From NCBI GenBank assembly GCA_028283345.1, contig JAPOGE010000007.1, positions 1 to 40,931 on the forward strand: a stretch of DNA of 40,931 bases, in the 5' to 3' direction. Position 1 is the first letter of the stretch. Each line of letters starts with the position of its first letter. This document shows positions 1 to 26,050 of the stretch, piece by piece. The position numbers and the translations under genes were made by a program. This stretch comes from Candidatus Poseidoniales archaeon. Its GTDB lineage: Archaea > Thermoplasmatota > Poseidoniia > Poseidoniales > Poseidoniaceae. The notes under the pieces were generated by a model. The model did not search any database, was not told the origin of the DNA, and saw only the letters and a program-made list of their open reading frames with translations.

Positions 1-1
1 C

Positions 2-103
2 AAACCCAAACCTAAACCCAAACCCAAATTCAAACCCAAACCCAAACCCAAACCGACAACCCCTGTAACATCGTCCCCCAATAAATCCCTAACTTATCCT
101 TGA
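2..103 (+). CDS. 3' end of a truncated CDS with a Lys-Pro repeat tail (KPKPKPKPKFKPKPKPKPTTPVTSSPNKSLTYP*)
   Basis: Frame 2 is open from the window edge to TGA at 101-103. The AAACCC hexamer run reads as (KP)n. Not in the ORF track because it has no start inside the window. Confidence 0.4.
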   Translation, partial: KPKPKPKPKFKPKPKPKPTTPVTSSPNKSLTYP

Positions 104-111
104 GCAGAGGG

Positions 112-182
112 TAGCGCGTGTTGCGCCCCGTAGTGCCGCATCTAGGCGGCAAAATAACCTCTGTTTCAAGGCCAAATCAGGC
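112..182 (+). repeat. Left copy of a ~71-bp imperfect inverted repeat bounding the AT-rich island
   Basis: tagcgcgtgttgcgccccg...aaggccaaatcaggc matches the reverse complement of 5972-6042 without gaps, about 58/71 identical by eye; the outer 19 and inner 15 bases are identical. Confidence 0.85.
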
Positions 183-183
183 A

Positions 184-384
184 AGATTGAAAATTGATGA
201 AATTGAAAAATTAGGTGGTGCTATGGCTGCGATAGAAGTTGGTTGGCAACAGCGTGAAATTCACGAAGCCGCATGGGCACATCTCAATGAGGTTGAAAGT
301 GGAAAACGAAAAATCGTTGGCATCAATCATGGATTGCTGAAAGAATTGATTTTGTGCGCTCATCTCGTTTGCTATCTGACTTAA
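184..384 (+). pseudogene. Methylmalonyl-CoA mutase large-subunit fragment
   Basis: RLKIDEIEKLGGAMAAIEVGWQQREIHEAAWAHLNEVESGKRKIVGIN resembles the MCM catalytic-subunit segment (E-LGG-AAIE-G--Q-EI-EAA---Q--VESG---IVGVN). Only ~45 aa is recognisable and the sequence then diverges and stops. Confidence 0.65.
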
Positions 385-456
385 CTTTCGGCATGAGCAA
401 TTCACTAAGTTTCTAAGTACTTGAAAGAAATGACTTGTTTAAGTTCTCAACAAAGA

Positions 457-710
457 CTAATTCTTCCGTCCTAGGCCTTCAAGAGATATTCCTGTCAACA
501 CACCCCAAACCGCAGGGTAATCGATTTCTAGTGCTAGACATAGTATCATTGCTAATACTCCAATAATCAATGATGTACCCAAACTTTACCAAATCTAAGA
601 TGGAATTTGAAACGTTCGGTAACAAATCTAGCAAATGCAAAGGATGCAATAAGAGAAACAGAGTACACGGCCCACATAATAAACTGCCACCATTCTAGTT
701 GGTATCGACA
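457..710 (-). pseudogene. Frameshifted small membrane protein
   Basis: Minus strand reads CRYQLEWWQFIMWAVYSVSLIASFAFARFVTERFKFHLRFGKV and then, in a neighbouring frame, TSLIIGVLAMILCLALEIDYPAVWGVLTGISLEGLGRKN*. Hydrophobic segments continue across a one-base frame change. Absent from the ORF track because each part is short. Confidence 0.4.
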
Positions 711-731
711 TTACGAAGTAATATTGTGTAC

Positions 732-1937
732 TTATACTTCCGAAATTTCATAAATTGTGCCAGCCCAACTAAAGACAAGTAATTCATCTGAAAGTCCGCG
801 GCCAAATCCTACAATCATTATCCCAGTTGTATCAATTTCCTCTGGTAGCCAGCCATCATCGGTTTGCTTAATCAACCAAATTGTACCTGTGCAAAAATCA
901 CCATACATGTATCCACCTTGTAAGGACGAAGGGCCCCAATCCATCCAGTATCCACCAGATATCGAACAAAAACCTCTTCCTGAATTATGTGAATAAACCG
1001 CAACTGGATCGGTGAATTCATCATCTGCAGGACTCATTTCTTGTTCACAATCCGAATCTGCAATGAATTCGTGAAATCCTTCCCTTTCTGACCATCCCAG
1101 ATTAGTGGGTTCAGAAGTTGTAACGTAATTGATCTCCTCCCAACAATTCTGGCCAACATCCGCTATCCAAAGCCCACCATTAGGATCAACATCAAACCTC
1201 CATGGATTTCGCAAGCCAGAATGGAGAATATATGGATCCCCTTCTGAATTGTTCAAAACTGGACTCATAGTTCCATTCACATATTGGAAAAGATGTATTG
1301 CTCCTTGAGGAGAAGAAGCGTTTTGTCCGTTTGAATATTGATCATTACTACCACCACCATCACCCAAGCCCCATAGATATTGATTATTACCAATGCTAAG
1401 CAAGTGCCCACCATTGTGATTTCGTTTAGGCTCTTCGACTTCCCTCAATACTACAATAGTTGATTGATTTAGTACACCATTTTCTATTTTAGCCTCTGCT
1501 AAGATTATCCCTGACTGATTCGGTCCCGTGCAGGTACCATTTTCCACATATGATAGCAATATAGCGCTGGTATTTTCATAATCTTCATCAAATGCCATTC
1601 CCAGTAATCCCTGTTCATAATGACATCTATTCACAACATCACCTAAACTCGCTACTACCCGAGTGGAATTACCATCCCAGGAAGTAATATTTCCAGATAA
1701 ATCTACCAACCACAATTCATCTAAAACTGGATGCTTCAAAGATAAGACTGGTGTTTCAAAGCCGGTCAGAAACTCAGTACAAACCAAATTTTCTCGATTT
1801 GGAGTCTTGCAGTCGATTTCTATCCTCTCTTGCCATTGATACCCCTTATCCTCTTCTACAACTTCCTCACTGCCAAAACATCCAGTAAATGTTGCAGACA
1901 ATACCAACAGAGAGATTAATATTGTCTTGGAGTACAT
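732..1937 (-). CDS. Glucose/sorbosone dehydrogenase-like (PQQ-type beta-propeller) secreted lipoprotein
   Basis: Signal peptide plus lipobox (LLVLSATFTGC); LGMAFDEDYE, NHNGGHLLS, LWGLGDGGGSND, SGLRNPWRFDVDPNGGLWIADVGQNCWEEIN motifs typical of the GSDH family. Confidence 0.85.
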   Translation of the reverse strand: MYSKTILISLLVLSATFTGCFGSEEVVEEDKGYQWQERIEIDCKTPNRENLVCTEFLTGFETPVLSLKHPVLDELWLVDLSGNITSWDGNSTRVVASLGDVVNRCHYEQGLLGMAFDEDYENTSAILLSYVENGTCTGPNQSGIILAEAKIENGVLNQSTIVVLREVEEPKRNHNGGHLLSIGNNQYLWGLGDGGGSNDQYSNGQNASSPQGAIHLFQYVNGTMSPVLNNSEGDPYILHSGLRNPWRFDVDPNGGLWIADVGQNCWEEINYVTTSEPTNLGWSEREGFHEFIADSDCEQEMSPADDEFTDPVAVYSHNSGRGFCSISGGYWMDWGPSSLQGGYMYGDFCTGTIWLIKQTDDGWLPEEIDTTGIMIVGFGRGLSDELLVFSWAGTIYEISEV

Positions 1938-2056
1938 AATATTCCCCAGATAATTTACTGCATACTATTCACCTATTTCAACAAATTTGTAAAATTGAGT
2001 TTGCAATAGGTTTTTCACCATATGATTATTTTTATTAAGAACTCTGGCCCATCAAC

Positions 2057-3205
2057 ATGGAGATTGATAAATCTTTACGGGAGGAAAATGTACAATCATT
2101 ATCATTATCCATTTCAATCGTATTTCTTGTCTTCATATTGATGAGTTCAACATTCAACTCATTTATTATCAAACCTTTACTTCGAGATGGAAGTTTAATT
2201 GTTCATGGGCGTTACATGATCACATTTGATGCACTAGATACTGTAGAGGCTGATGAAGGAGCAAGCGTAGTTGCAATTGGCTCCTCAATTACTCGTGCCT
2301 CGATTGATGGTAGCTGCATTGAGAATTTCAGTTCAATTCGGGATTTGGAGGTTTACAATTTAGGATTGTCAGCAGCCAATCCGTATACTGAACTGATGCA
2401 ATTAACCGCACTAATCAATTCAAATCCGGATATAGTATTGCTTGAGGCAGGTGTGAATAGTTTTTGGGATATAGATAGCCAAAATAGAACTGGTGGAATA
2501 AACGAAGAATCTTATATTGAATTCCGAATGAGATTAAACTCCATACTTATGGACGACTCTGATTTTGGTAATTGGACAGAAATTATTAGAGAAAAAGATA
2601 GAGAATTCCTTTTTGATGACTATTTCTCAAGAAATAATGAGACTGCTAAGTATTCCAATGAGGCTATTGAAGAACTGTTTAGCCGTTTCGTATTAGATCA
2701 ATCCAATGCAGCAAAAACCACAAGTTGGCTACGAGCACCAGAAACTTCTGATGAATCATGGGAGGACTATCTCAGTACACCAAATTACAGAATAGGAGTT
2801 TGGAATAACGGTTCTATGATAGAAGATTGGGAAGCATGGTTCGAAAATAATATGCAAGAGCGCTCTAAATTTGGTGAATTTAATCCCCAGCATAGTGGAA
2901 CATTATTTCACACTGTAATGGAACATATTGTTGAAGAATTGACAAGAAATGAGATTACGGTCATTCTAATTGCAACCCCTAGAAATCCAATGGTTTTTGA
3001 CTACCTTGAACCGGGCCAAACAGATGGACTGAATTCTTCACTTTCTAATTTGACCATTTCAGATGATGTCATTGTTGAAAATATGTTTTGGGAGACATGG
3101 GATAAGGATGAGTTCTTGGATAGAAATCATCTTAACGATAACGGAAGACAAAAAATGTGTGAAATATTAGCACCTAAAATTGATACTATTTTAACAGGTG
3201 AATAA
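2057..3205 (+). CDS. SGNH/GDSL-hydrolase-like membrane-anchored protein (AlgJ/AlgX-like partner of MBOAT)
   Basis: N-terminal TM segment; VVAIGSSITRASIDG (block I GxS), PDIVLLEAGVNSFWD, late DRNHLND (D-x-x-H-like); overlaps the MBOAT start. Confidence 0.6.
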   Translation: MEIDKSLREENVQSLSLSISIVFLVFILMSSTFNSFIIKPLLRDGSLIVHGRYMITFDALDTVEADEGASVVAIGSSITRASIDGSCIENFSSIRDLEVYNLGLSAANPYTELMQLTALINSNPDIVLLEAGVNSFWDIDSQNRTGGINEESYIEFRMRLNSILMDDSDFGNWTEIIREKDREFLFDDYFSRNNETAKYSNEAIEELFSRFVLDQSNAAKTTSWLRAPETSDESWEDYLSTPNYRIGVWNNGSMIEDWEAWFENNMQERSKFGEFNPQHSGTLFHTVMEHIVEELTRNEITVILIATPRNPMVFDYLEPGQTDGLNSSLSNLTISDDVIVENMFWETWDKDEFLDRNHLNDNGRQKMCEILAPKIDTILTGE

Positions 3206-4661
3206 TTTGGATTTTGTAACATCAGACTACTATTTCTGGTTTCTTCCAGCAGTTTTTCTCTGCACCTTTGTCATTGGAAATAAACAGAGAAGGAAGCAAA
3301 TAGCAATCCTACTTGTAAGTTCATATATTTTCTTCTGGTTTGCATCCGGTTGGCATATTTTATTATTGTTAATTTCAACACTTGTAGATTGGAATGCTGC
3401 AAAAAATATCTACTTATCTAATGATTCGAAAGTTAAGAAAAGATGGTTGAAAGGTGCTTTGATAATTAATCTTGGACTGTTAGGTATCTTCAAGTATCTA
3501 GATTTCATTATTGAGACTTGGAATTGGTCAACATTACGTATTACTGGCGCACCAGAAATAGATACATTAGGGCTATTATTACCGGTGGGAATTTCATTTT
3601 ACACTTTCCAAACAATGTCCTATACTATTGATGTATATCGTGGGAAAAGTGAACCATATGACGATTTTATTTCATTCGCTTGCTATGCGGCCTTTTTCCC
3701 ACAACTTGTAGCAGGACCAATTGTTAGATCAGACCATTTCAGAAAAGAAATCGAATCGACCTTGACCCCTTCAGCTATGAGGTTCAGACTTGGATTAACA
3801 CTAATCGTTTATGGTCTTGCGAAAAAACTGATTATTGCAGACAATGTTGCACTTCATGTTAATGCAATCTTTGAGGACTCATCTGGACTAAACAATATTG
3901 GCCTTGTCTGGTGGGGAGCACTTGCTTTTGGAATCCAGATTTACTGCGACTTTTCAGCATACACAGATATTGCTATCGGTTCAGCACATTTACTTGGAAT
4001 AAGATTGCCTGAAAATTTTGATTCCCCATATGGTGCAACATCTCCTCAGGACTTTTGGAGGCGTTGGCATATTTCTCTTTCAACTTGGTTGAGAGATTAT
4101 TTGTATATTCCATTAGGGGGGAGCAAAAATGGACCCCGTGTACTACTTTTCGCTCTAATGGGAACGATGTTACTAGGAGGATTATGGCACGGAGCGTCTT
4201 GGAATTTCGTGCTGTGGGGATTCATGCACGGATTGCTTTTGATTCTCCATCGCACCCTCAAAGATACTAAACCAGTAGCTAATCTATTTGAAAAACTTCC
4301 ACGAATCTCATGCCTATTAGGTTGGGTAGTAACACAATATTTTGTTTTCATGACCTGGCTAGTGTTCCGTTTAGAAGATACTTCGCTCCTTATACCTTCA
4401 TTGAAAACATACATTGGAATAGGTGGACATTGGAATATTTCTGAAATGGCAGACATATTGCCAGAAGTACGTTATCTTACCTTTGCTATTGCCATCATAT
4501 TCCTCATAGGACACTTTGTAAGTTGGAAAATTGGTGGAGTAAAAAATTGGATTTCCCGCCAGAATTCTGTTGTTTGGGGTGTTTGTATTGGAGTGATGTT
4601 GATGCTTACTTTGTCGCTGAGACCGGTTGAAACAGTAGATTTCATCTACTTCAGATTTTGA
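3198..4661 (+). CDS. MBOAT-family O-acyltransferase (AlgI-like)
   Basis: Polytopic; LPVGISFYTFQTMSYTIDVYRG, FFPQLVAGPIVR, DFWRRWHISLSTWLRDYLYIPLGG, LLGGLWHGASWNFVLWGFMHG are hallmark AlgI/MBOAT motifs; GTG start, 8-bp overlap with upstream ORF. Confidence 0.95.
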   Translation: MNNLDFVTSDYYFWFLPAVFLCTFVIGNKQRRKQIAILLVSSYIFFWFASGWHILLLLISTLVDWNAAKNIYLSNDSKVKKRWLKGALIINLGLLGIFKYLDFIIETWNWSTLRITGAPEIDTLGLLLPVGISFYTFQTMSYTIDVYRGKSEPYDDFISFACYAAFFPQLVAGPIVRSDHFRKEIESTLTPSAMRFRLGLTLIVYGLAKKLIIADNVALHVNAIFEDSSGLNNIGLVWWGALAFGIQIYCDFSAYTDIAIGSAHLLGIRLPENFDSPYGATSPQDFWRRWHISLSTWLRDYLYIPLGGSKNGPRVLLFALMGTMLLGGLWHGASWNFVLWGFMHGLLLILHRTLKDTKPVANLFEKLPRISCLLGWVVTQYFVFMTWLVFRLEDTSLLIPSLKTYIGIGGHWNISEMADILPEVRYLTFAIAIIFLIGHFVSWKIGGVKNWISRQNSVVWGVCIGVMLMLTLSLRPVETVDFIYFRF

Positions 4662-4670
4662 AGTTCTTCA

Positions 4671-4951
4671 CTAATCTTCAGAATTATTCTTTCGCCTAAC
4701 GCGAAAAGTCGATTTAGCCGGTTCAACATCATCCATTGGCTCAGGTCCACCTTTACGCTCTTCTAATGCAATTTCAAATCCGGGACGTATTTTCCAATCG
4801 GGACCTTTCTTTGGCCTATGGTGTTTGCAAACGAGAAAAACTTCGCTTGATGAGTTGCGACTGGCCAAGTGATTCCAAAGTTAAAGATAAGTGGTAACAT
4901 CAATGCTACCATTGTCCAACCAACAATCAGCGCAAGGACATCTCGTCGCAT
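4671..4951 (-). pseudogene. Disrupted membrane protein, possibly a TrkH N-terminal remnant
   Basis: MRRDVLALIVGWTMVALMLPLIFNFGIT... starts a few bases after the TrkA-like stop; the overlapping +1 ORF (4671-4868) continues with charged sequence, suggesting frameshift or fusion. Confidence 0.3.
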
Positions 4952-4957
4952 TTAGCA

Positions 4958-5332
4958 TCACACCTTGAATTTCTTTTCAAGGTCTTCAACCCTGTCTGGT
5001 GGAAGGAAAATTATTAGTTTGTCATCTTCCATAAGAGGCTTAGAAGGAGATGGCCGAAGTGTTTCCCAATCATCGTTAGCATTTCTTCTTTGGATAAATG
5101 CGACTTTACACCAACTTGGTAGACTAATCGATGATAATGTCTTACCGGCAAAATTTGCATTGGGAGTAATAGTAAGCATATGCCAACCACATCTGGAATA
5201 CTCGAAAGGAGGGCATAAGACCCAGGTAGTTCAGAATGTATTTTTGAAAGAATACTATCAACAGCAACACGTTTTCTATCGACTGCAAAAGTAATTCCCA
5301 TTCGCCTTACAACATTTACTAAATCAGCATAG
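4958..5332 (-). pseudogene. TrkA-like C-terminal remnant (RCK_C), frameshifted
   Basis: ADLVNVVRRMGITFAVDRKRVAVDSILSKI (frame of ORF 5014-5961), then in another frame ITPNANFAGKTLSSISLPSWCKVAFIQRRN...RPSPSKPLMEDDKLIIFLPPDRVEDLEKKF, resembling TrkA_C (PF02080). Confidence 0.6.
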
Positions 5333-5961
5333 ATTTCACCTGTGAATCTCTTGTTCTTGTCCTTGATGTGTTTGATGGCATCCTTGGTTCGCTCTGAAAT
5401 CTGCCCACTTTCCAATTCGGCGATTCCACCGATCATTGTCAAGAAGAATCGACCCATTGCTGAAGTCGTATCGAGGGCCTGTCCACCGAATTCAACCACA
5501 TGCATCCCCACGTCCTTCTTCGTCAATTCATCGACTGTTGTGAGCATGTCTTGCACAGTTCTGAACAACCTGTCCACCTTGACGATGATAATGTGCTTTA
5601 TTCCGTGGTTCTGAATATAGTCCTTCATCGCTTTACCTGCGGGTCTTGTCCACAGATGTTTAGTTGCTGAGACTCCATCATCAACGAATACCTTGACAAC
5701 ATTGTATCTCTTCATCCGGCCATAGTTTGTGCAATTTGTTTCCTGTGCTTCAAGACTGATTCCTTCTTCGGATTGCCTCTTAGATGATACTCTGATGTAA
5801 ATCACAGCTTTAGGCTGGTCTTCGGTATTGTTATCGGACACACCTACATTTATCTGTTCTTCTTTATACGTGGTGGCGGATTCCGTAACTGAATTTGTTG
5901 ACGCACTGTTGCTATTGGATTTGAGATGAAACGACCCAGTGTTTCCATCCATTTGACTCAC
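5014..5961 (-). CDS. Serine recombinase (resolvase-type catalytic domain), truncated after ~210 aa and read through into TrkA-like sequence
   Basis: KAVIYIRVSSKRQSEEGISLEAQ, VDDGVSA, IIIVKVDRLFRT, FFLTMIGGIAELESGQISERTKDAI. The expected recombinase/zinc-ribbon DNA-binding region is missing. Confidence 0.85.
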   Translation of the reverse strand: MSQMDGNTGSFHLKSNSNSASTNSVTESATTYKEEQINVGVSDNNTEDQPKAVIYIRVSSKRQSEEGISLEAQETNCTNYGRMKRYNVVKVFVDDGVSATKHLWTRPAGKAMKDYIQNHGIKHIIIVKVDRLFRTVQDMLTTVDELTKKDVGMHVVEFGGQALDTTSAMGRFFLTMIGGIAELESGQISERTKDAIKHIKDKNKRFTGEIYADLVNVVRRMGITFAVDRKRVAVDSILSKIHSELPGSYALLSSIPDVVGICLLLLPMQILPVRHYHRLVYQVGVKSHLSKEEMLTMIGKHFGHLLLSLLWKMTN

Positions 5962-5971
5962 TGTTTCAGTG

Positions 5972-6042
5972 GCCTGATTTGGCCTTAAAATAGCGGGTTT
6001 TTCGCCACCTGACTACGACACTGCGGGGCGCAACACGCGCTA
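5972..6042 (-). repeat. Right copy of the ~71-bp imperfect inverted repeat
   Basis: Reverse complement matches 112-182; lies immediately upstream of the serine recombinase start. Confidence 0.85.
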
Positions 6043-6393
6043 GTCCGTGTGCCGGACAACAGTGCCCCATTCAGACCCCGAAAAAGACCCTGTTTCAGAG
6101 GAGATTTCACCACCCTCCCAAGTGGGTGAAAGTGATGAAAACAGTAGTTCATCAATAAGTGAACTTGGTGGGAACAGTGCGTCCAACTATAATGGCGGCG
6201 CAGTGTGCCTTTCACGGCCAATTCCTGATGCGAAACCTTTTATGTAAAAAGAGAGGTATTAAGCAGAATGTACGTTTATGGTGGAGGTATGTCTATAGAC
6301 AAACCCAATAATAAGAAAATATCCCAACCTAAAGCAACATCATCATCATAAGATTAATTCGGGAGGTATGTACCACGCAGGGAGACCAATAGC

Positions 6394-7287
6394 ATGTCAT
6401 TTGGAGAAGTACGAGTTCCCGAACGCGCTCCGCTGCTCGCTTGGTTTCTATCATGCACCACCCTCGCCATCTGGAATTACAGCCGTGGCCTGTATCTTTG
6501 GGCGGGATACAACCTCGGGGGGGCGGTGATGGCCTTGATGGTGATCTCGTTCATGTGGAGCGGCCGTATACGCATGCCTGTATTGCCGCTGTGGATCGCC
6601 TACACCACGACGTTGCTGCACTTCTTCGGTGGCTCGCTCGGCGCACCGGATAGCGGACCTGGCCCCTTCTGCTTCGATGGCATGCAGCCGGGGGAATGGT
6701 TGTGCGCCGACGGCGTCAACGGGATGTACCACGTCCACGCCTGGTGGGACGAATTGGTGCACGGAACGAACAGCGCCGCCGCCGCCATCGGTTGGTCATT
6801 CGCATGGCGCAGGGTGTCCAATCACAACGGATGGGGGATTTCGCCACGCATGGTCGCGGGTATCTGCTTCTCGCTCACCGTCGCCATCGGGGTGGGTTAC
6901 GAGGTGTACGAGTTCTTCGGCAAGACCGTTTTCCTGACGATTGACCAAGGAGGCTACCTGAACACGGCGAGCGACCTCATCAGCAATCTCGTGGGCGCAG
7001 GGGTGGGAATGATGTTCGCACTGTTTTACGACCCACTGAACGGAAAGGCGCCGAGCGTGAGCGCTACCCCGCTGCCATGGCAGGCGTCACTCACGCTCAT
7101 CACCACGCTCCCACTCTCGGTCATCGGGGGCCTGCTCTCGCTCGACCTGCTATTGCTGGATGGTGCGTTGGTCGGTGCAGACTATGACCGCGTGGGAGAG
7201 ATCCTGCTCGGCTCGGTGCTGCTCTCCCTGTTGCTGTCAGCTGCGCGATTGGTTCAGCAATCACAGATGAAGAAACGAGAGGCCTGA
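6394..7287 (+). CDS. Polytopic membrane protein, YjdF/DUF2238-like
   Basis: Multiple TM segments; WWDELVHGTNS, GVGYEVYEFF, LNTASDLISNLVGAGVG pattern resembles YjdF-type proteins. Confidence 0.5.
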   Translation: MSFGEVRVPERAPLLAWFLSCTTLAIWNYSRGLYLWAGYNLGGAVMALMVISFMWSGRIRMPVLPLWIAYTTTLLHFFGGSLGAPDSGPGPFCFDGMQPGEWLCADGVNGMYHVHAWWDELVHGTNSAAAAIGWSFAWRRVSNHNGWGISPRMVAGICFSLTVAIGVGYEVYEFFGKTVFLTIDQGGYLNTASDLISNLVGAGVGMMFALFYDPLNGKAPSVSATPLPWQASLTLITTLPLSVIGGLLSLDLLLLDGALVGADYDRVGEILLGSVLLSLLLSAARLVQQSQMKKREA

Positions 7288-7558
7288 ACGAAAAGCCTGC
7301 GATTCGCGGTCGATTAAGCGAGAGGACTGTTCTCAGACGGGTGTGTTGGCGCGGTGAGAGATTCCTCATGTCTTAGGTTGAAATCAGTGGTTTGGAAAAA
7401 TCAGGCATAGTGGTATTTCCAAATGGCCTCTCCTCTGAAACGACGGGTGTTGCATGGCTACCCACTGATTAACCTCGCAGGATTGATAATTGTTGAGATT
7501 CACCTCAAAGAAATGTTGTGCTTTGTGCTGGATGTTTCACGGCGGTTTAGGGATTTGT

Positions 7559-7675
7559 ATTGACAGTAATGTTCCGAATCATCGGTAGCCTTCAACCCCT
7601 TTCGGAAGCGCCGAGCGATTATTTGAATAGAACGAGACGCTTAGGTTCGCCGCCAATGGGCGGCAGGGTAGAGTG
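7559..7675 (+). repeat. Dispersed intergenic repeat, copy A
   Basis: ttgacagtaatgttccgaatc; inverted ggaagcgccgagcg; gaatagaacga; ttcgccgccaatgggcggcagggtagagtg containing a 6-bp GCCGCC-AATG-GGCGGC hairpin. Confidence 0.65.
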
Positions 7676-16570: not shown

Positions 16571-16650
16571 TGTGAATGGATTCGCCGCCAAAGGGCGGCA
16601 AAGTAGAGTGAATCGCTCGACGCTTCCTTGACAGTGATGTTCCGAATCCA
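16571..16650 (+). repeat. Dispersed intergenic repeat, copy B
   Basis: gatgtgaatggattcgccgccaaagggcggcaaagtagagtgaatcgctcgacgcttccttgacagtgatgttccgaatcc (approximate ends); GCCGCC-AAAG-GGCGGC hairpin. Confidence 0.7.
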
Positions 16651-16702
16651 ATGCGGACTACAACCGATTAACCGAATCACCGAATAATTCCTGAATAGTG
16701 AG

Positions 16703-17404: not shown

Positions 17405-17508
17405 GGATTCGGAACATCACTGTCAAGGAAGCGCCGAAGATCGCCTAAGCCTTCCTGCGATAGGAATGATGCGAATCCATTCGCCCCTTACATGGGCAGG
17501 GTAGAGTG
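17405..17508 (+). repeat. Dispersed intergenic repeat, copy D (modules rearranged/inverted)
   Basis: ggattcggaacatcactgtcaaggaagc is the reverse complement of the gcttccttgacagtgatgttccgaatcc module of copy B; followed by gatgcgaatccattcgccccttacatgggcagggtagagtg. Confidence 0.65.
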
Positions 17509-25764: not shown

Positions 25765-25833
25765 ATCCAGACCACCGAGGGGTATGTCTTGAGGTTTGAC
25801 CCTGTGCACCCAAGCGGTTCACTCAGGCCATCG

Positions 25834-25890
25834 GGGTTCAAATCCATCTCTGCGCGATAAAGGCGTTTTATTGCATAGTGCAGAGAGTGG
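25834..25890 (+). repeat. Direct repeat copy 1 of tRNA-Leu 3'-end plus flank
   Basis: gggttcaaatccatctctgcgcgataaaggcgttttattgcatagtgcagagagtgg; the last 28 bp (25863-25890) are identical to 26023-26050, offset 160 bp. Confidence 0.85.
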
Positions 25891-26015
25891 AGAATATCAA
25901 TGGACCAAAGTTTCACGCTTTGAAATGTTGAATTGTGAAACTTTGAAACACGTCACAATCGGTATTATGCATTTTGATGTGCCGATTGTGTCTGGTTCAA
26001 ATCCCATCTCTGCAC
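25878..26015 (+). other. Potential branched structured element (outer 9-bp stem enclosing two hairpins)
   Basis: GTGCAGAGA 25878-25886 pairs with TCTCTGCAC 26007-26015; CAAAGTTTCAC 25906-25916 with GTGAAACTTTG 25935-25945; CACAATCGG 25954-25962 with CCGATTGTG 25982-25990. All stems perfect. Confidence 0.55.
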
Positions 26016-26050
26016 GACAAAAGCGTTTTATTGCATAGTGCAGAGAGTGG
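25993..26050 (+). repeat. Direct repeat copy 2 (overlaps the tRNA-Leu 3' end)
   Basis: tggttcaaatcccatctctgcacgacaaaagcgttttattgcatagtgcagagagtgg. Confidence 0.85.

Follow-up and report, generated by a model that had tools for sequence, protein, structure and literature searches.

The window analysed here is a stretch of 40,931 nucleotides from an uncultured ocean archaeon, Candidatus Poseidoniales (GCA_028283345.1, contig JAPOGE010000007.1, positions 1 to 40,931), and its first 6 kb hold a gene island framed by an inverted repeat. The 3' end of a gene for a KP-repeat protein (1..103, plus strand; read directly from the sequence) has its stop at 101-103 and is followed after a gap of 8 bp by the left repeat (112..182, plus strand), which thus lies just past the window-edge gene as the sequence-only reading had placed it. 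The host-side arm of this junction, half-site L (taacttatccttgagcagaggg, 90..111, plus strand), abuts a TA (112..113) with which the repeat, or R1 arm, begins. Further inwards are a methylmalonyl-CoA mutase (MCM) fragment (187..357, plus strand; PF01642) and three cargo genes that encode a GSDH-domain lipoprotein (732..1937, minus strand; PF07995, E 2.5e-19), an SGNH/GDSL-like acyl-transfer partner (2057..3205, plus strand; weak PF13472, below the Pfam cutoff) and a DltB-like MBOAT O-acyltransferase (3198..4661, plus strand; PF03062, E 4e-30; TIGR04091 below cutoff). The minus strand then carries a small membrane-protein gene broken by a frameshift (4671..4951; two overlapping frames), a frameshifted fragment of a TrkA_C-containing gene (4958..5319; PF02080) fused to a recombinase fragment, and the recombinase fragment itself (5320..5961), comprising an N-terminal extension and a complete catalytic domain without the C-terminal Recombinase domain. 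The serine recombinase expected at one end of the island is borne out by a PF00239 match running from 5961 to about 5320 on the minus strand (E 3e-35). The right repeat, R1' (5900..6042, minus strand), is a full copy of about 143 bp that makes up the 5' part of the recombinase gene. Its TA (6041..6042) is common to a second, head-to-head copy (CACGCGC-TA-GTCCGTG), termed W3 (6041..6183, plus strand), an older third member of the repeat family that is also present at the same gene in the sister species G001.

The inverted repeat was found exactly at the positions first described (112-182 / 5972-6042), with 58/71 identical positions (82%). It is the longest in the window and exceeds the best 71-nt inverted matches in 20 dinucleotide-block shuffles of 1-6400 (39-42/71); the pair gives E = 7.9e-14 by BLASTN over the whole genome. 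The GC content is 39.4% in 112-6042 vs 55.6% in 7291-40931, and tetranucleotide distances of 0.56-0.76 for 112-6042 compare with 0.31 +/- 0.04 (maximum 0.405) for windows beyond 8 kb, so that the proposed AT-rich island does lie outside the background. The composition shift reported near 6.35 kb does not mark the edge of the element, which is at 6042; an AT-rich stretch that includes 6041-6183 reaches about 6350 (44% GC; present in G001 too).

The cargo that the sequence-only reading had assigned to a recombinase element is present and looks like passenger DNA. The MCM fragment is foreign, being closer to a gene of another genus (G036, 75%) than to the genome's own gene (53%). The MBOAT protein shows 75% to those of three other-genus genomes, and G001, a genome that is only 68% complete, gave no match to it. 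In genome G037 an SGNH-MBOAT pair sits in a polysaccharide locus, which suggests that the pair is probably passenger DNA for surface-polymer acylation.

Copies aligned from other genomes define a repeat family with a length of about 145 bp; the left repeat corresponds to its first 71 bp, and the right repeat spans nearly the whole. An intact relative of the recombinase, 343 aa in length and 50% to the window protein over the catalytic domain, is found at locus L010, where the TA of an L-TA-R site is followed 6 bp on by its GTG start, and the right repeat likewise leads into the local recombinase frame. For these two reasons the repeat most plausibly represents a recombinase-gene 5' end that codes for an N-terminal extension rich in Ser and Asn, and the left repeat a truncated copy of it. 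An element bounded by repeats and tied to a serine recombinase had been foreseen and stands, but the repeat would be the start of the recombinase gene itself and not a mere terminal repeat. Several copies of this leader carry stops, the right window copy included, and the annotated local recombinase frame therefore begins further in; these stops also rule out a conserved free-standing peptide. A structured RNA was unconvincing (RNAalifold: 7 pairs, 1 with a compensatory change, -5.8 kcal/mol). The motif AACASTG is spaced through the repeat family and forms an array without a leader at L186 (about 235-330), and such motifs could be recombinase accessory sites.

Intact relatives (L010, L011, L018 and L031) carry a Resolvase followed by a Recombinase domain (PF00239 and partial PF07508; below the Pfam cutoff in L010). 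The truncated window copy does not have this order: only the catalytic domain is present and its C-terminal half is the frameshifted TrkA_C fragment. The best PHROG match of the recombinase is 'integrase'. Because the local recombinase is truncated, the window copy has probably lost its activity, except with help in trans, and no second recombinase was found in this 91%-complete genome.

DNA and profile searches of 318 genomes of the order detected the repeat family in 13 of them, from two families and nine genera (the weakest matches, at E 0.001-0.007, are uncertain), which rules out a repeat confined to this genome. The BLAST search of archaeal genomes that had been suggested from the sequence thus returned other genomes in which the repeat has other neighbours. 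Three cross-genome pairs are identical or nearly so from the TA inwards (137/137, 107/110 and 58/60), the first of them between genomes of different families, and the 60 bp outside the TA match at 20-31/60 ungapped, where the maximum of 31/60 includes the shared pre-TA motif. The TA is accordingly the edge of homology in these pairs and the inferred crossover dinucleotide. Copies cluster near contig ends (combined Fisher P 2e-8), as would be expected of repeated or population-variable junctions; contigs of metagenome-assembled genomes can be chimeric, and contig ends at repeats limit the visible context. IMG/VR gave no match for either the repeat or the recombinase of L010, and its 22 matches to a shorter pattern were ascribed to chance; a viral origin was discarded.

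None of the genomes yielded a complete element whose two ends could both be verified. The element in G044 has a different, putative second end (R2 type, TA near 6022 of L076) that is suggestive only, as a similar R2 occurs elsewhere without a preceding gene stop. This other right arm, TTCGGATAGACCC, stands behind the same kind of pre-TA arm in L076 (about 5990-6060), L026 (94) and L113 (9626), and about 40 bp upstream of it are conserved in the three genomes.

The host side of the junctions is also regular. At all 15 scorable L-TA-R sites a reading frame of the same direction ends 5-204 bp ahead of the copy, and the genes in this position include aceE, lipoamide dehydrogenase, subtilase and LVIVD (names other than LVIVD assigned by eye). 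The bases before the TA follow the pattern ..TGAGCARNSSS with an A at -6 in 16 of 17 copies, and the left half-site of the window fits it. Behind aceE the repeat is present in G060 and missing from its closest relative G068; the two match up to ..CTGAGCAGnCCn-TA and then diverge, so that G068 provides the unoccupied site called for by the sequence-only reading. The repeat recurs elsewhere, a site without the element is seen and k-mer composition differs, all in line with that reading. The G068 site is palindromic at 12/16 positions and a site behind LVIVD on contig C190 of the present genome at 16/16, vs 6-8/16 at two occupied L-TA-R junctions, which suggests that unoccupied targets are TA-centred palindromes. 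A site-like sequence that scores with the pre-TA pattern lies on the minus strand at window 7438-7481 (..TTAATCAGTGGG-TA-GCCATGCAACACCCGTCG, TA at 7459-7460), and L012 carries the similar CGACGGGTGTTGnATGGnTA.

Comparison with the sister species places the right edge of the island. In G001 the order is LVIVD gene, TA, W3 and gene 6394 (94% identical protein), and homology between the window and G001 starts exactly at 6041, which makes the right edge exact. W3 is opposite in direction to the right copy, and both share CTAG at 6040-6043. In our genome the LVIVD gene is on C190 and converges there with a lipoprotein gene. Between the two, and 29 bp past the end of the lipoprotein gene, stands CAGTGAC-TA-GTCACTG, palindromic at all 16 bp. 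The 4-7 bases left of the TA on the C190 side differ (TGAC vs GGGGGG in G001), which weakens the case for exactness at the TA there. The C190 MMPL gene is 95% identical to the G001 copy and thus genus-native. C190 is therefore not foreign DNA, and its left junction was rejected as an island edge of that kind.

These junctions bear on how the island arrived. It could have come in by plain insertion, as a transposon-like 5.9-kb unit whose terminal inverted repeats measure 71 bp and which entered at the TA of W3 with TA target duplication and without inversion. A TA stands at each end, the repeats resemble each other in inverted orientation, and G001 has W3 with its TA and no island, all as such an insertion would leave them. 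The LVIVD gene to the left of W3 in G001 is however not left of 112 but on C190, joined to another AT-rich and genus-native region. In addition no DDE transposase was detected among the scanned open reading frames of 112-6042 and its flanks, which also separates the island from TA-target insertion sequences of the IS630/Tc1 type. We therefore regard a simple insertion as unlikely. The right boundary first proposed is exact, but the junction is head-to-head with W3 and inversion between two sites fits it better than plain insertion does. An assembly or binning chimera, in which DNA of an AT-rich relative was joined at a shared repeat, would be in accordance with repeat copies at contig ends and with the affinity of MCM and MBOAT to other genera. 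Yet the junction at 6041 lies 6 kb in from the contig start, its two sides have no more than CTAG in common, less than an assembler would need to overlap them, and it falls exactly on an edge found independently in other genomes, making a chimera improbable. Marginally less probable again is that the repeats are relic fragments of an extinct element in an inverted layout without present function, as the fragmentary or frameshifted MCM, TrkA, membrane-protein and recombinase genes and the stops in several leaders might suggest, for the 137/137 match between two families and the intact L010 point to a family active in recent times, without implying the same for this copy.

Our preferred reading, to which we give a probability of roughly 0.65, is that 112-6042 is one integrated 5.93-kb copy of a family of elements, belonging to this archaeal order, mobilised by a small serine recombinase and targeting TA-centred palindromes, and that the junction at 6041 arose by a later reciprocal inversion. 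The ends of the element are inward-facing copies of the recombinase-gene 5' end (R1), the junctions lie at one TA, and the copies stand co-directionally behind genes. Host targets would be imperfect palindromes L-TA-L' between convergent genes with a half-site of about CARNSSS. A circle with R'-TA-R ends would recombine with L-TA-L' to give L-TA-R ... R'-TA-L', the exchange presumably being performed by the recombinase of the family. Junction edges at the TA and palindromic unoccupied sites are what we see, for comparison with an exchange of circle attP and attB at 2 bp. This would bring the recombinase gene, whose start is 6 bp within the crossover, to lie behind a host gene, from which read-through transcription could express it.

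Because TA reads alike on both strands, sites could pair in either orientation and orientation would not be enforced. For the A118 serine integrase symmetric core dinucleotides recombine both ways and give deletions as well as inversions (PMC3556126), which indicates that inversion at a symmetric TA is allowed. Prior to any exchange of partners, 112-6042 would have been an ordinary element flanked by the KP gene and the lipoprotein gene. Its original right junction, lipoprotein-L-TA-R1', and the LVIVD-L-TA-W3 junction, as in the sister species, would then have swapped partners. The products would be the head-to-head R1'-TA-W3 present at 6041 and, between the LVIVD and lipoprotein genes on C190, the palindrome L-TA-L'. 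This partner exchange is the simplest account of the 6041 junction: both parents are ordinary in architecture, and the products are exactly the two unusual junctions. All but one of the four junctions in the scheme are observed, the exception being the parental lipoprotein-L-TA-R1', which is predicted but did not turn up in any genome. Inversion of 112-6042 itself would be possible in principle since its two sites are inverted and the TA core is symmetric. As the resident recombinase is truncated, any present activity would depend on an enzyme supplied in trans.

The family resembles serine integrase elements (A118 and Bxb1 type; CcrB and XisF relatives) in its Resolvase catalytic domain followed by a Recombinase-domain stretch, in the conservative exchange inferred at a central dinucleotide and in having the recombinase gene beside the attachment site. 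Unlike in those elements the intact relatives measure 262-343 aa with only part of PF07508 and, in some, a long Ser/Asn-rich N-terminal extension, while the TA core is self-complementary and the many targets lie behind genes. The relatives are shorter than large serine integrases (roughly 450-700 aa), and no zinc-ribbon family was reported in them. DNA invertases and resolvases (Hin, Tn3 type) share the catalytic domain, and their sites are short palindromes with a 2-bp core. In contrast to these, no HTH_7 C-terminal domain was reported in the window recombinase or its relatives, and the family integrates at many loci and moves between genomes. IS607-family transposons also combine a serine recombinase with many targets, and are characterised (PMC6188088) by an N-terminal DNA-binding domain, no terminal inverted repeats and no target duplication. 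The present family differs in its usual domain order, catalytic then Recombinase, and in its 71-bp inverted repeats, and NF033518 scored far below cutoff. Searches of open-access papers on this group for recombinases, genomic islands and mobile elements turned up no serine-recombinase element, and the family is seemingly undescribed.

If our reading is correct, a path along which genes pass between families of these abundant, uncultured marine archaea would be defined by its exact ends, its target rule and its enzyme, and the breaks of their assemblies at the repeat sites would be accounted for. The symmetric core would be a natural test case for serine recombination without built-in orientation. 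One may speculate further, with the odds somewhat against it, that these elements represent a whole archaeal class of serine-recombinase elements with a self-complementary TA core, for which hairpin-like palindromes behind genes serve as landing sites and which, for want of orientation control, both integrates cargo and inverts large segments of the chromosome, so that natural populations would be mixtures of arrangements.

Leaders often adjoin truncated genes, such as MCM and TrkA in the window. Gene fragments are fused directly after the leader in L040/L182 (first 125 bp) and L041 (1200-1265), one of them unknown and one C-terminal AsnRS-like by eye. In L069 and L070 partial leader copies are joined at GAGGATAATAT to a HAD-hydrolase-like sequence that is near-identical in two genera, and this 11-mer is present in L183 too. 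Elsewhere in the window a dispersed repeat, TTGACAGTGATGTTCCGAATC, possibly a second repeat family, occurs at 7560-7597, 16617-16665 and 17405-17437, one pair being inverted, 755 nt apart and 97% identical. Two 60-nt copies (85%) at 25831-25890 and 25991-26050 start with the tRNA-like GGTTCAAATCC.
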